In this document: positions 33,499-40,358 of the stretch, one piece after another
How positions within the stretch are numbered: position 1 is the first letter of the stretch
Layout: every line of letters starts with the position of its first letter
Origin: Natrinema halophilum
Lineage (GTDB): Archaea > Halobacteriota > Halobacteria > Halobacteriales > Natrialbaceae
Length of the DNA stretch: 64,000 nt
Assembly (NCBI RefSeq): GCF_013402815.2
Contig: NZ_CP058601.1
Location: forward strand, 3,410,001 to 3,474,000
Reading direction: 5' to 3'
Made by a program: the position numbers and the translations under genes
The notes under the pieces: model-generated
What the model was told of the DNA's origin: nothing
Databases searched by the model: none
Seen by the model: only the letters and a program-made list of their open reading frames with translations

Positions 33499-34653
33499 AT
33501 GCAACGGAACGTCTCGACCACGGTGCGGGTCAAACTCCACTCGCTGACCAATCGGAAAGCCGACCTGCTTTCCCGCGAGTATGAGGCGTTCCAGACCGAG
33601 GTTCACGGCGGAGACGCCAACCTGTACTCTGCGACCGACCAGCAAGCGTCGAAGGTACAACGGCAGAAAGACCCAAACCCCGACACCGAACAACCCGTCG
33701 TCCTTCGCAACGACGTGTTCGACGTGGCCTACGACGAGGACACCGTTCTCTCGTCGTGGTGGGTGCAAGTCCCCGTCTATGACCCTGAGCGTGGACGGGG
33801 CAACTCTATCTGGTGTCCTTCCCACGTCCCTCGGAAGGACGAACAACTCGTCCGCGAAGCCGATGTTCGGGACAGCGAACTGGTGCGCCGTGACGGTGAC
33901 TGGTACGTGCATCTCGTCGTCAAGCGGTCTGTGACCGTGGCCGACGAGTACGACGATGTACTCACCATCGACATGGGCGCACGGTGGGTCGCCACCTGCG
34001 CGTTCATCTCCGACCGCAAGACCACGTTCTACGGCGAGGAAGTGCGTCGTATCCGTGAACACTACAAGCAGTTGCGGAAGTCCATCGGGAAGGCGAAACC
34101 CCGACAGGGACAGCAGGTAGTCGAGCGTATCGGTGACGCCGAGGCACGAAAGGTGGACGACCGCCTCCACAAGATTGCTCGCTCCATTGTGGAAGACGCT
34201 GGGGAACGGAACGCGGTCATCGTCGTGAGCGACCTCGGCGGGATTCGCAAGGACAACGACAAGGGGCGATACGTCAACGACAAGACCCACAAGATGCCGT
34301 TCGCCCGCCTGCTCAACTACATCGAGTACAAGGCTCACGATGCGGGCATCGACGTGCAGTTGGTCGAAGAATACGACACGTCGAAGACGTGCAACCGCTG
34401 TGCCTGCGAGGGCGTCCGAGAGACGCAGGGACGCTTTGAGTGCCCCGAGTGTGGTCTGGACGACAACGCGGACAAGAACGGTGCGCTGAACATCGGCAAA
34501 CGAGCCTTGGGCAAGTTCTCGAAACTGCTGTCTGAGGCGGGGGCTGTACTGGCACAGCCCGAAACGCAGGTCATCGTCCCACGCGATGACGAACCTGCGA
34601 ACCTCTCCGTTTCCGTGGGTTCAACCCCCAGTGGGGGAACCCCACGGCTTTAG
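33499..34653 (+). CDS. tnpB: TnpB RNA-guided nuclease of the IS605 element
   Basis: 384 residues. RuvC-like motifs: D158 (TIDMGARWVA), the second motif IVVSDLGGIR (S244 where glutamate is usual, then D245), and D325 (DDNADKNGALNI). A zinc ribbon C298/C301/C315/C318 lies between. TnpB proteins are nucleases guided by an RNA from the element's right end and help retain the element. Its last codons run into the right-end hairpin, so coding and guide-RNA scaffold overlap. The N-terminal part is shorter and more polar than in the commonest haloarchaeal TnpB. Confidence 0.9.
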   Translation: MQRNVSTTVRVKLHSLTNRKADLLSREYEAFQTEVHGGDANLYSATDQQASKVQRQKDPNPDTEQPVVLRNDVFDVAYDEDTVLSSWWVQVPVYDPERGRGNSIWCPSHVPRKDEQLVREADVRDSELVRRDGDWYVHLVVKRSVTVADEYDDVLTIDMGARWVATCAFISDRKTTFYGEEVRRIREHYKQLRKSIGKAKPRQGQQVVERIGDAEARKVDDRLHKIARSIVEDAGERNAVIVVSDLGGIRKDNDKGRYVNDKTHKMPFARLLNYIEYKAHDAGIDVQLVEEYDTSKTCNRCACEGVRETQGRFECPECGLDDNADKNGALNIGKRALGKFSKLLSEAGAVLAQPETQVIVPRDDEPANLSVSVGSTPSGGTPRL

Positions 34654-35600: not shown

Positions 35601-36269
35601 CTAAAACTGCTCGAGTCCGGTCTGTTCGGCCGCCGCGAGAACGGTTTCGCAGGTCGACCACGATTCGCGCGCGAACGGTGGGAGGTCCCCGTGGTCGTCG
35701 ACGTACTCCGTGAGGAACTCGCGGGTGGTCGGATCGCCCGGATAGCCGCTGCCGATCGGCCCGTACTCGTCGTCGAGGGCGGCGACGTGTGCGTCCCGCT
35801 CGACCTTGGCGACGATGCTTGCCGCCCCGACGATCGGCGAATCGTCGTCGGCGCCGTGGCGCGCGTCCACATCGACGCCCTCGAGCGAACACGCCTCGGT
35901 CACGCGGCGTGCGAACCGGTCGGCGTCGGTGTCGCAGGCGTCACAGAGTCCCGGAATCGCCGCAGTCGGCGCGTCCTGCTCGAGATCGGCGACCGCCTCT
36001 TCGATCGCCGTTGCGTGGGCCGCGACGGCCAGCGAGTTCATATCCGTTTCGGGGGCGTCGATCCGTTCGGGCGTGATTTCGGCGACACCGACTGCGATCC
36101 GCTCGTCGTCACGGAGGATCGCCGCCAGTTCCTCGCGTCGGTCCGACGGGAGTCGTTTCGAGTCCCTGATCCCATCCGGGAGATCGGCCGGGTTCTCGAG
36201 GTGAACCGCCGCGGCGAACATCGATCCGAGGGCCGGACCTTTTCCCGCTTCGTCGACGCCGAAGGGCAT
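35601..36269 (-). CDS. rnhB: Ribonuclease HII
   Basis: 222 residues from the ATG at 36269 (MPFGVDEAGKGPALGSM). The active-site D and E of DEAGKG are at 6-7; SKRLPSDRREEL and the third aspartate region (DSPIVGAASIVAKVERDAHV) follow. It removes RNA from RNA-DNA hybrids and single ribonucleotides. Frame is open upstream to 36380 but that part is not family-like. Divergent from the exported hydrolase. Confidence 0.93.
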   Translation of the reverse strand: MPFGVDEAGKGPALGSMFAAAVHLENPADLPDGIRDSKRLPSDRREELAAILRDDERIAVGVAEITPERIDAPETDMNSLAVAAHATAIEEAVADLEQDAPTAAIPGLCDACDTDADRFARRVTEACSLEGVDVDARHGADDDSPIVGAASIVAKVERDAHVAALDDEYGPIGSGYPGDPTTREFLTEYVDDHGDLPPFARESWSTCETVLAAAEQTGLEQF

Positions 36270-36436
36270 AGACGCGTGCTCGAGGGGCGGAGCTAAAATC
36301 GTTGTGAATCGGCCGTTCGGCCTGTACCCGGTTCCCGGTCGAACGGTAATCGACTCTGTTTTCGTCCGATCCCTTCTCATAACTGACTTTGTCTTCGAAG
36401 TAATAATTTAACGGATATTGAACATTAGTAATAAAC

Positions 36437-37645
36437 GTGCTACCGACACGACGCAGACTATTGAGAACAGTCGGAACGGGAGGCCTAACCGCGTTCGGTA
36501 CGACGGCGCTGACCGGGAGCGCGAGCGCACACGAGGCCCTCGAAATCCCGTCTGACTACCTCGAGCAGTACCGAGAGACTGGCGCCAACTGGGGGATGGA
36601 CTGGACGTATCTTGCCGGCATCGGGGCGGTCGAGACCCAGCACGGTCAGTACGAGGACGGCTGTGAAACCTCTTCCGCGGGGGCTCGCGGTCCCATGCAG
36701 TTCATGCCGTCGACGTGGGAGGCGTACGGTGTGGACGGAACCGGCGATGGGACCACAGATATCTGCGATTTCCGCGATGCGATCCCGTCCGCCGCGAACT
36801 ACCTCGAGGCGAACGGGGCACCGGAGAACTGGGACGACGCCCTGTACGCGTACAATCCGCGGTGGTCCTACGTCGAGCACGTCACGGAACACGCCGCCCG
36901 CTATCGCGATCAGTACGGGAGTGGCGACGGCGGTGGTGGCGACACCGGCGGCGGTGGCGGCGAGCGCGCCGAGTTCGGCGACGGTGATCGGATCACGCCG
37001 ACGACCAGTTTGAACACTCGCCATCGGCCGGGCACGGAATCGGACGTCCTCGCCACGATGCAACCGGGATCCGCCGGCGAGATCGTCAACGGTCCCGAAT
37101 CGGCGGACGGATACACGTGGTGGGGCGTCCACTGGCTCGAGAACGATCTCTGGGGCTGGTCGGTCGAACGGTATCTCACGGCCGCGGACGATTCTGACGG
37201 CGGCGGTGGAAGCGGTGGCACGCAGGGGCCCGACTTCACGTGGCCCATCGATGGGTACATCACCTCGCCGTACGGCGATCGGTCCGGCCACCTCGCGGTC
37301 GATTTCGGCAACGATCGAATCGTCGGAACGCCGGTCTACGCGGCGCGCGACGGCGTCGTCGATGTGGTCGGCTACGAAGCGACCGGCTGTGGCAACTACG
37401 TCAAACTCGGCCACGACAGCGGCTACCAGACGATGTACTGCCACCTGAACAGCGTCCGCGTCTCCGAGGGACGGCGCGTCTCGAGGGGCGAGCAACTCGG
37501 TGGGATGGGTGATACGGGCCGGTCGACCGCACCGCACCTGCACTTCACGATCGAACGAAATCGGTCGCATTTGCCGATCCCCGGCGGCGACGGCCGGACC
37601 GTCAACGCGGGCGAGGCGATTCCGCGGGACTACGACGGAATCTGA
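36437..37645 (+). CDS. Tat-exported lytic transglycosylase-SH3-M23 peptidase (murein hydrolase-like)
   Basis: 402 residues from GTG 36437; taataattta at 36401-36410 fits a TATA box for a leaderless transcript. TRRRLLRTVG and a hydrophobic run to SASA form a Tat signal. Residues 40-155: lysozyme-like transglycosylase fold, E66 in GAVETQHG, then SSAGARGPMQFMPSTW and LYAYN. A Gly-rich linker, an SH3b-like domain (about 180-250), a second linker, and an M23 endopeptidase at 265-385 with H285, D289, H336 and H369 (HLHF). All catalytic residues are in place. These activities attack bacterial murein, which haloarchaea lack; the closest look is to actinobacterial secreted hydrolases, so transfer is likely. 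Role as an antibacterial weapon is inference. Confidence 0.88.
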   Translation: MLPTRRRLLRTVGTGGLTAFGTTALTGSASAHEALEIPSDYLEQYRETGANWGMDWTYLAGIGAVETQHGQYEDGCETSSAGARGPMQFMPSTWEAYGVDGTGDGTTDICDFRDAIPSAANYLEANGAPENWDDALYAYNPRWSYVEHVTEHAARYRDQYGSGDGGGGDTGGGGGERAEFGDGDRITPTTSLNTRHRPGTESDVLATMQPGSAGEIVNGPESADGYTWWGVHWLENDLWGWSVERYLTAADDSDGGGGSGGTQGPDFTWPIDGYITSPYGDRSGHLAVDFGNDRIVGTPVYAARDGVVDVVGYEATGCGNYVKLGHDSGYQTMYCHLNSVRVSEGRRVSRGEQLGGMGDTGRSTAPHLHFTIERNRSHLPIPGGDGRTVNAGEAIPRDYDGI

Positions 37646-37742: not shown

Positions 37743-39092
37743 TTAGCGCTCGTCCGGTTCGTCTCTGAGGTACGCCTCGAGTTCGAACGGATCGTCTTCC
37801 CCTTCGACGCCGGTCACGTCCAGCGCCGTTACCTCTGCGTCGGTCTCGAGCAGCCCCGCCAGACTCGGTTCTGTTCGGCCGTCGTCGCTGCTTATGAGCT
37901 CCTTAACGTATAGGCCGCCCTCGCCGTGGAGTCGTACCTCGGCCTCCGTCGGTTCCCGAAGGTCGCCGTCGATATCGTACACCGTCCGCTCGCGGGTGAG
38001 GCCGGCCCGACGGTGGTCGACTCGCTCGGGTGTGTACTGATCGACTGTCGTCCCCTCGAGTTCGGCGAGCGCCGCGTCGAATGCGGCTTCGTCGATCGGG
38101 TCTTCGAACGTGACGTCGGCCCGGTAGCGCTTGCTCGCGTCGTGTTCTTTGACTCGTTCGACCATCTCGTGGGTCGCAAGCTGCAGTCCCTCGACTTCGA
38201 CTGCACCGTCGGCAGCCTCGTTGATCTCACGCTCGAGCGCTGCGGGATCGGGGTCGCGCTTTCGGGGCCGTTTGACTTCGAGAACGAACGGCCGGCCGTC
38301 GCCGAGCATGCGGGCGTCGACGTCTTCCCGGCCCGCGCCGTGGAACGTTCCGTCGTCGCCGTTCATAGCGTCGACGACGTGGGGTCGGACGACCTGTTCG
38401 ACGCTGGTGTCGTACATGTAGCCCGAACCGCCGCAGTAATCGCACGGTTCCTCGCCGCCGTCTCCGAGCTGGACGCCGCTGCCCCCACACTCTCGACACG
38501 GCCATTCCGTCTGCGGGATGTGCCGCTCGAGTTTGCGATAGCGACCGTAGACGAATGCGGGGTTGATTTGCACGTCGACTGCGTGGCTCGTGACGGATTC
38601 GGATTCGACGGCTTCGAACGGTTCGAACCCATCGAGGTCGACGATTGCGAGGACGTCGGGTCGGTCGAAGTCGACGTCGGTCCCCGTTTTCGCGCCGACG
38701 CGCCGGCCGACCTCGCGGTTGACTTCCCGCTTGATCGACTCGCCGACGTCCGGATCGAGGCCCGCGTCCTCTCGGAGCAGTCGTTCGTTTTCCTCGACCA
38801 GCGGCGGGACGCGCGTCCCGACCTGATAGGTGGCGAATGCGATGCCCTCGAGGGCATCGACGATCGTCTCGGCGATGGCGTCGAAGGTGCCACAGTATCC
38901 CTCGCAAACCCAGCAGTCCGCAGGGCTGGTGGGATCGAAATCCTCGTCATCGGCCAGCGCGACAGTGGTCCGTAGCGCCCGGCCGCGCGCTGCGTTGGTC
39001 AGCCCGAAACTCCGCTCGGCGAACGGCCGCCCGAGACAGGAGTCACAGACGGCCCCGGTTGCGAGTAACGCGCGAGCGTCCTCCGTAATCAT
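37743..39092 (-). CDS. pus10: tRNA pseudouridine synthase Pus10
   Basis: 449 residues from the ATG at 39092 (MITEDARALLATGAVCDSCL). N-terminal CDSCLGRPF and CWVCEGYC cysteine pairs of the THUMP-containing part; two CxxCGGSG motifs (CRECGGSG, CDYCGGSG) around 215-245; catalytic aspartate in ARMLGDGRPFVLEVKRP. Archaeal Pus10 makes pseudouridine 54 and 55 in the T-loop; TrmY at 42361 then methylates position 54. An open frame runs much further upstream but has no homology. Confidence 0.92.
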   Translation of the reverse strand: MITEDARALLATGAVCDSCLGRPFAERSFGLTNAARGRALRTTVALADDEDFDPTSPADCWVCEGYCGTFDAIAETIVDALEGIAFATYQVGTRVPPLVEENERLLREDAGLDPDVGESIKREVNREVGRRVGAKTGTDVDFDRPDVLAIVDLDGFEPFEAVESESVTSHAVDVQINPAFVYGRYRKLERHIPQTEWPCRECGGSGVQLGDGGEEPCDYCGGSGYMYDTSVEQVVRPHVVDAMNGDDGTFHGAGREDVDARMLGDGRPFVLEVKRPRKRDPDPAALEREINEAADGAVEVEGLQLATHEMVERVKEHDASKRYRADVTFEDPIDEAAFDAALAELEGTTVDQYTPERVDHRRAGLTRERTVYDIDGDLREPTEAEVRLHGEGGLYVKELISSDDGRTEPSLAGLLETDAEVTALDVTGVEGEDDPFELEAYLRDEPDER

Positions 39093-39248
39093 ATCTCGGG
39101 AATCGGGGGGCCGCGGGTAACACGTTTTCCCTTCGCAGGACGGACGACGAAAGCAGCGTTCGCCCGCGACCGGTGATCGACCACCGCCCCTTGAATATGC
39201 CGGCTGTTTGCCCGGAGGTTCAAATGGATGGCGTTCGATCCCCGGGTT

Positions 39249-40358
39249 ATGAACGATTCTCGACTGGATCGGCGGTCCTTTCTCGCGGTCGCGAGCGCCG
39301 GTCTCGCCGGCGCGGTCGCCGGCTGTTCCGAACCTCAGGCCGACCGTTCGATCGAGGGCGGTTCCTCGTACAACATCGACCGGGACAATCTGGCAAAGGG
39401 ATCGGCGTTTACCGATCTCTACAACGCGATCATCGAATCGGTCACGCAGGTTCGCGTCTTCGGCATTCAGAACACAGAGACCGGCACAGAGGGGCGCGGA
39501 CAGGGGTCGGGCTTCCTCTACGATGATAGCCACGTCATAACCAACGACCACGTCATCGCTAACGGGACGGCAGCCGACCTCCAGTACATCACCGGCGACT
39601 GGACTGGCACCACGCTCGTCGGCCGCGACTATTACAGCGACCTGGCCGTCCTCGAGGTCGATCACGTCCCCGACTCGGCCGAACCCTTATCGTTTACCGA
39701 CCAACGGCCGGTCGTCGGCCAACAGGTCGCAGCGATCGGCAATCCCTACGGCCTCGAGGGGTCGATGTCCGCGGGGATCGTAAGCGGCGTCGATCGGACA
39801 CTCCAGCTTCCGCAGCGCCAATTTTCCTATCCGAACGTCATCCAGACGGATGCCGCGGTCAATCCAGGCAACAGCGGCGGTCCACTCGTCGACCTCCGGG
39901 GATCGGTCGTGGGTGTCATCAATTCCGGTGGCGGTGACAACATCGGATTCGCGATTTCTGCAGCCCTCGCCGAGCGCGTCGTCCCGTCGCTCATCGAGTC
40001 CGGTTCGTACGAACACTCCTATATGGGTATCGGACTCAGAACAGTCGATCGACTGATCGCCGAAGCGAACGACCTTGCGGAGGCGACCGGCGTCATGGTC
40101 ACCGCCGTCGTCAACGACTCGGCCGCCGACGGCGTTTTGCGACCGGCCTCGCGCTCCGTTCAGCGACGGGGCGAATCGATTCCCGTCGGGGGCGACGTCA
40201 TCCTCGAACTGAACGGCAATTCGATTCCCGATCGCCACGCACTATCCACGTTTCTCGCGCTCGAAACTAGTCCCGGAGAAACGCTCACGGTTCGCCTTCG
40301 GCGAGACGGACAATCGATTACGAGAGAATTGACTCTCGATGCTCGTCCACCGAGATAA
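39249..40358 (+). CDS. HtrA/DegP-like serine protease lipoprotein
   Basis: 369 residues from the ATG at 39249. RRSFLAVASAGLAGAVAGC is a Tat signal with a lipobox (C26), so it is anchored outside the membrane. Trypsin-like triad H101 (NDHVIANG), D131 (SDLAVLEV), S209 (NPGNSGGPLVD), then a PDZ domain (about 260-360). It probably degrades or refolds damaged extracytoplasmic proteins. An in-frame start at 39228 would spoil the signal. Confidence 0.92.
   Translation: MNDSRLDRRSFLAVASAGLAGAVAGCSEPQADRSIEGGSSYNIDRDNLAKGSAFTDLYNAIIESVTQVRVFGIQNTETGTEGRGQGSGFLYDDSHVITNDHVIANGTAADLQYITGDWTGTTLVGRDYYSDLAVLEVDHVPDSAEPLSFTDQRPVVGQQVAAIGNPYGLEGSMSAGIVSGVDRTLQLPQRQFSYPNVIQTDAAVNPGNSGGPLVDLRGSVVGVINSGGGDNIGFAISAALAERVVPSLIESGSYEHSYMGIGLRTVDRLIAEANDLAEATGVMVTAVVNDSAADGVLRPASRSVQRRGESIPVGGDVILELNGNSIPDRHALSTFLALETSPGETLTVRLRRDGQSITRELTLDARPPR

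Follow-up and report, generated by a model that had tools for sequence, protein, structure and literature searches.

In the window, a 64,000-nucleotide stretch of the Natrinema halophilum genome, a gene for a predicted exported peptidoglycan hydrolase lies between rnhB and pus10 and combines an SLT and an M23 domain with an SH3b-like module (Table 1). Three Pfam models exceed their gathering cut-offs in the protein: Peptidase_M23 (PF01551; aa 285-378, E=5e-27, 94 bits against a cut-off of 28.7), SLT_2 (PF13406; aa 76-140, E=9e-16, 58.4 bits against 24.3) and SLT (aa 76-140, E=3e-6, 27.1 bits against 21.3). An earlier note on this DNA had named both catalytic domains, and the residues that it picked out are in place. 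E66 is conserved in 17 of 17 archaeal SLT relatives and aligns, in a weak alignment, with the GVETRWG segment of Slt35, and the M23 zinc and catalytic set (HxxxD, His, HxH) is complete with H285, D289, H336 and H369, as listed in the note, and H367, the first histidine of HxH, which had been left out. Among M23 relatives, H285, D289, H336 and H367 are each found in 29 of 29 and H369 in 26; an Asp takes the place of H369 in three of the 29 haloarchaeal SH3-M23 domains, which may reflect altered metal binding or misalignment. The N-terminus, in which TRRRLLRT is followed by a hydrophobic stretch and ASA at aa 29-31, reads as a Tat signal, in agreement with the note, and the protein is acidic (pI about 4.4).

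Table 1. Features of the hydrolase gene and its flanks, in window coordinates
Feature	Coordinates	Strand	Remarks
rnhB (RNase HII)	35601..36380	-	Housekeeping gene on one side of the insertion site
TAATTTAAC, TATA/BRE-like candidate promoter element	36404..36412	+	Ends 24 nt upstream of the start codon
Bifunctional SLT-SH3b-M23 predicted exported peptidoglycan hydrolase gene	36437..37645	+	402 aa, GTG start
Tat-like signal peptide, aa 1-31	36437..36529	+	TRRRLLRT ... SASA, read from sequence; RR invariant in SLT-SH3 relatives
SLT/MltB-like lytic transglycosylase domain, aa 36-158	36542..36910	+	Catalytic E66 (codon 36632-36634)
SH3b-like putative wall-binding module, aa 180-247	36974..37177	+	Flanked by Gly-rich linkers
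M23 (LytM-type) zinc endopeptidase domain, aa 265-402	37229..37642	+	H285, D289, H336, H367, H369
pus10	37743..38969	-	Flanking housekeeping gene; adjoins rnhB in congeners without the hydrolase gene

This is a real gene under purifying selection, since an intact orthologue, 84% identical, occupies the same site in a congener (G012), the pair gives a dN/dS of 0.20 overall (SLT 0.10, SH3 0.16, M23 0.26), and its GC3, at 0.80, is the same as in rnhB and pus10. Upstream, a TTTAAC core is kept in the window genome (G000), G012 and G017 while the bases around it differ, and the element listed in Table 1 may serve as the promoter.

In a structure model of the full-length protein the SLT domain is mostly above pLDDT 90, and the SH3 module and linkers take no confident fold (mean pLDDT 58); the M23 domain was therefore modelled separately, giving pLDDT 93 and pTM 0.88. 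The best PDB matches of the M23 model are all M23 peptidoglycan hydrolases (9gy1, DipM, Csd2, ShyA and LytM). The structure prediction that the earlier note had proposed as a check thus supports the SLT and M23 parts at the level of fold and catalytic residues.

The rnhB-pus10 junction in the genus

The gene is carried between rnhB and pus10 by 4 of 29 congeners, the window genome included, and is intact in G000 and G012. The copy in G017 has no usable start codon and an in-frame stop ahead of the HxH motif, and the copy in G023 has lost a large internal part and has a damaged frame; as two of the four carriers have only a broken copy, the gene is dispensable. No trace of it was found in the other 25 of the 29, most of which have rnhB directly beside pus10; at a few loci the flank that was compared stops short of pus10, and no copy was found where the protein search covered them. 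In a tree of rnhB-pus10, G000, G017 and G023 form one group from which G012 is separated, though support is weak, so that the carrier species may have gained the gene once or more than once and losses may vary in number accordingly.

Two other reading frames were noted near the gene. A TnpB-like frame with a Cas12f1-like TNB domain and a weak OrfB_IS605 match lies 1.8 kb upstream at 33499-34653 (+), and a trypsin-like/PDZ (DegP-like) serine protease with an RR motif and a Cys lipobox-like site is encoded at 39228-40358 (+). Elsewhere in the host genome, at about 1953.2-1954.6k of C1 (L144:5234-6565, minus strand), a protein with Amidase_2, two SH3 modules and a Tat-like start is predicted to be a second exported wall hydrolase. 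Another M23 protein, unlike the first and with what look like membrane segments, is encoded at C1:3559.5k (L148:4763-6406, minus strand), and weak M23 relatives are common across the genus.

The SH3 module and its gene arrangements

The SH3b-like domain described in the earlier note stands by way of its homologues, which score as high as 61 bits with SH3_3 (PF08239; cut-off 27), and not by its own score, as the window copy gives no match even at E<=1. On its likeness to these modules, the domain is taken to be real and part of a conserved haloarchaeal family. What is new here is the occurrence of this SH3b module, by profile match, in 19 of 86 genera of Halobacteria (47 of 391 genomes), fused to SLT, M23, Amidase_2, glucosaminidase and once to GH18, with domain types confirmed by Pfam on examples. 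Neither the main text of PMC12352652 nor literature searches gave any report of an SH3b family from haloarchaea. Counted by genome, the module is linked to Amidase_2 in 36, M23 in 23, SLT in 8 and glucosaminidase in 6; SLT itself occurs in 8 of the 391 genomes, plus one fragment, and is SH3-linked in all eight. Single-enzyme architectures comprise SLT-SH3, SH3-M23, Amidase_2-SH3(n), SH3-Amidase_2 and glucosaminidase-SH3, and double enzymes comprise SLT-SH3-M23 (the window genome and G012), glucosaminidase-SH3x2-M23 (L205), Amidase_2-SH3x2-glucosaminidase (L206) and Amidase_2-SH3x4-glucosaminidase (L199, L203). By a simple rule applied without a control set, RRxPhi and a hydrophobic stretch precede the first domain in 91 of 101 SH3 proteins. 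The single GH18 case is a glycosidase fused to two SH3 modules behind a Tat-like signal (L209:521-2194, plus strand), and two 855-aa proteins of Actinarchaeum-type haloarchaea (L018:4002-6569 and L025:4005-6572) carry an alpha/beta hydrolase domain (DUF900), Amidase_2 and four SH3 modules.

Tat-SLT-SH3 and Tat-SH3-M23 are neighbouring genes, running in the same direction with a gap of 40-53 nt, in four genomes of Halocatena type (Halocatena pleomorpha, H. marina, H. salina and isolate YIM A00010). The H. salina pair sits on a 532-kb plasmid, and in H. marina the pair is followed by a third gene, SH3-Amidase_2. Because both halves exist in Halocatena as adjacent separate genes, the window gene has the look of two such genes fused at the SH3 segment that they share; recombination of the two SH3 copies would have deleted what lies between the genes, along with the second signal, to leave SLT-SH3-M23 with one SH3 module, and fusion of two adjacent haloarchaeal genes would explain this domain order. 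Fission of a fused gene into the pair is possible, and would need an extra SH3 copy and signal to be gained.

The SH3 segments are alike within genomes. At the DNA level, the aligned modules of the tandem pair share 94% of their bases in both YIM A00010 and H. salina; the figure is 86% for H. pleomorpha and 80% for H. marina. In Haladaptatus halobius, where the SLT gene and the M23 gene do not lie together, their modules are 93% identical. Mean SH3 identity is 85% within a genome across enzymes versus 76% between genomes for the same enzyme. The SH3 tree (68 codons, low internal support) groups by genome more than by enzyme: 16 changes suffice for 12 genomes, with none of 200 shuffles as low, and 16 changes are needed for 5 kinds of enzyme, with 21 of 200 shuffles as low. 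This likeness could stem from recent duplication instead of gene conversion. The odds appear evenly balanced that the module is a swappable cassette, homogenised within each genome, through which recombination repeatedly builds single- and double-enzyme antibacterial proteins, that of the window included.

Ancestry of the domains

In the SLT tree, the domains from archaea fall into a single clade (98/94) whose nearest bacterial rows are Rubrobacter (Actinomycetota), followed by Streptosporangiales-type actinobacteria, with supports from 88/63 to 97/71, and plasmid records independently put Rubrobacter first among bacteria. This placement, moderately supported, makes one old transfer of SLT from bacteria likely; the affinity to Rubrobacter is a lead, since the bacterial SLT relatives come from plasmid records and from a single scan by patterns, which favours the motifs of the query. 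The actinobacterial transfer proposed in the earlier note therefore keeps its SLT part. Import of the whole architecture from Actinomycetota is not supported: an SH3 module of this kind was found in none of the sampled bacterial SLT relatives, their M23 domains branch elsewhere in the M23 tree, and the order of domains is accounted for by local fusion. Actinobacterial proteins that likewise join two catalytic domains (M23-SLT in Intrasporangiaceae, SLT...M23 in soil actinobacteria) differ in order or linker, have no such SH3 module and carry M23 domains of other branches.

Within the archaeal SLT domains, the window protein and that of G012 fall inside a group with Halocatena-type genes (95/99). 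In the M23 tree the two belong to an archaeal clade of 14 rows (96/93), where they join three of the four Halocatena-type genes with lower support (85/86); other members of the window's family are found in another part of this clade. With Halocatena genes as nearest relatives, the gene was probably last passed from one archaeon to another, once it had been assembled in archaea. As far as these trees and gene orders indicate, it was in archaea that the two enzymes were joined in one architecture, with an SLT domain that is nearest to Rubrobacter at moderate support.

Target and role of the protein

Haloarchaea have no murein, and a producer of such an enzyme would for that reason need no immunity to it. 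We favour, at a probability of about 0.8, a secreted bifunctional peptidoglycan hydrolase that acts against bacterial walls and arose in Halobacteria by SH3 fusion. The protein would be exported folded through Tat and adapted to salt, and its SH3b module would dock on bacterial sacculi, where the SLT domain, with E66 as acid/base, would cleave glycan strands and the zinc M23 domain would cleave peptide cross-links. A single molecule could break both dimensions of the wall of nearby bacteria, freeing nutrients, removing competitors or both. Its gene would have formed inside Halobacteria when a Tat-SLT-SH3 gene fused with its Tat-SH3-M23 neighbour, SH3-SH3 recombination being the simplest way, and ended up in the rnhB-pus10 junction of the genus. 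This reading draws support from the confident SLT fold and the confident M23 fold that matches M23 peptidoglycan peptidases, from the catalytic residues and purifying selection, from the split genes of Halocatena type and the SH3 identities and trees, and from an M23 domain related to that of a bactericidal archaeal protein (PMC12352652). It is weakened by an SH3 module that lies below any Pfam threshold and is not confidently folded in the window protein, by the broken copies in two of four carriers, and by the outer membrane of halophilic diderm bacteria, which would protect them. The module may also bind GlcNAc polymers in general, as one relative joins it to GH18.

Killing of bacteria by archaeal hydrolases is not a new idea, and the earlier note had mentioned it. 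Two haloarchaeal Tat-signal hydrolases published in 2025, Woldo (J2ZZK6) and Danwoldo (J2ZJU5) of Halogranum salarium B-1, kill the halophilic bacterium H. halodurans, and a catalytic mutant of Woldo has no effect (PMC12352652); an archaeal GH25 muramidase with antibacterial activity had been reported earlier (PMC4241558; PMC12356512). Woldo and Danwoldo are likewise modular and have a homologous M23 domain, but each has one catalytic domain with two PG_binding_1 domains and neither SLT nor SH3b (PMC12352652). The SLT-SH3b-M23 protein is a distinct variant. NCBIfam model NF052336, which looks like the Woldo model, scores 165 bits against the window protein, below its cut-off of 500 and over the M23 part only; members of this family are about 40-43% identical to the window's M23 domain, and a full match occurs in only 3 of the 391 Halobacteria, versus 47 for the SH3 module. 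Modular archaeal hydrolases are defined in PMC12352652 by a Pfam catalytic domain, a Pfam wall-binding domain and bactericidal activity. Both catalytic domains of the window protein pass in Pfam, but its binding domain, homologous to SH3_3, falls below the cut-off, so that a screen of this type would probably miss the protein. More distantly, the SLT domain shares the motif SAGAxGPMQFMPSTW, the catalytic Glu and the fold with MltB/Slt35-type lytic transglycosylases (PF13406), from which it differs as a short single domain that is archaeal, predicted to be exported and fused to SH3b and M23. The M23 domain shares HxxxD, the third His, HxH and the fold with endopeptidases of the LytM, lysostaphin and zoocin A type, but has no targeting domain of the lysostaphin or zoocin type, its N-terminal SH3b being common to other haloarchaeal hydrolases.

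Bacterial walls, the target suggested in the earlier note, are the most sensible substrate for a protein of this composition, and archaeal relatives do kill bacteria (PMC12352652). Whether it would serve as a weapon is a separate matter, because a secreted hydrolase with broad bond coverage could also digest the peptidoglycan of dead bacteria as food. Such scavenging, named as a possibility in a 2025 primer (PMC12356512), would suit a nutritional accessory gene that is patchily present and lost, and the GH18 relative carries the same SH3 module; we hold scavenging without killing possible but less likely than not, since archaeal proteins of comparable design (M23 plus binding domain, and glucosaminidase) kill live H. 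halodurans (PMC12352652). Purifying selection in the producer would also be expected of an enzyme that remodels the producer's own surface polymer, be it S-layer glycan or exopolysaccharide. One binding module shared by SLT, M23, N-acetylmuramoyl-alanine amidase and glucosaminidase argues for peptidoglycan over an S-layer polymer, and most of the 391 Halobacteria are without the gene family, as 25 of 29 congeners are without the gene, which makes own-surface remodelling improbable. More improbable still is a remnant or recruited viral lysis or entry enzyme: the M23 domain matches phage endolysins and tail proteins, but the neighbours are housekeeping genes and the protein has its own Tat-like signal. 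Phage origin found no support in phage records, none of which covers 80% of the protein, or in viral contigs, where a pattern search gave no match.

As a bacterial-wall hydrolase, the protein would represent a second kind of archaeal wall-cutting enzyme beside the Woldo type, with another binding module and two predicted activities per chain. Module recombination offers a testable route by which archaea may build wall-cutting proteins, and the SH3-linked family provides a set of salt-tolerant candidate antibacterial enzymes.
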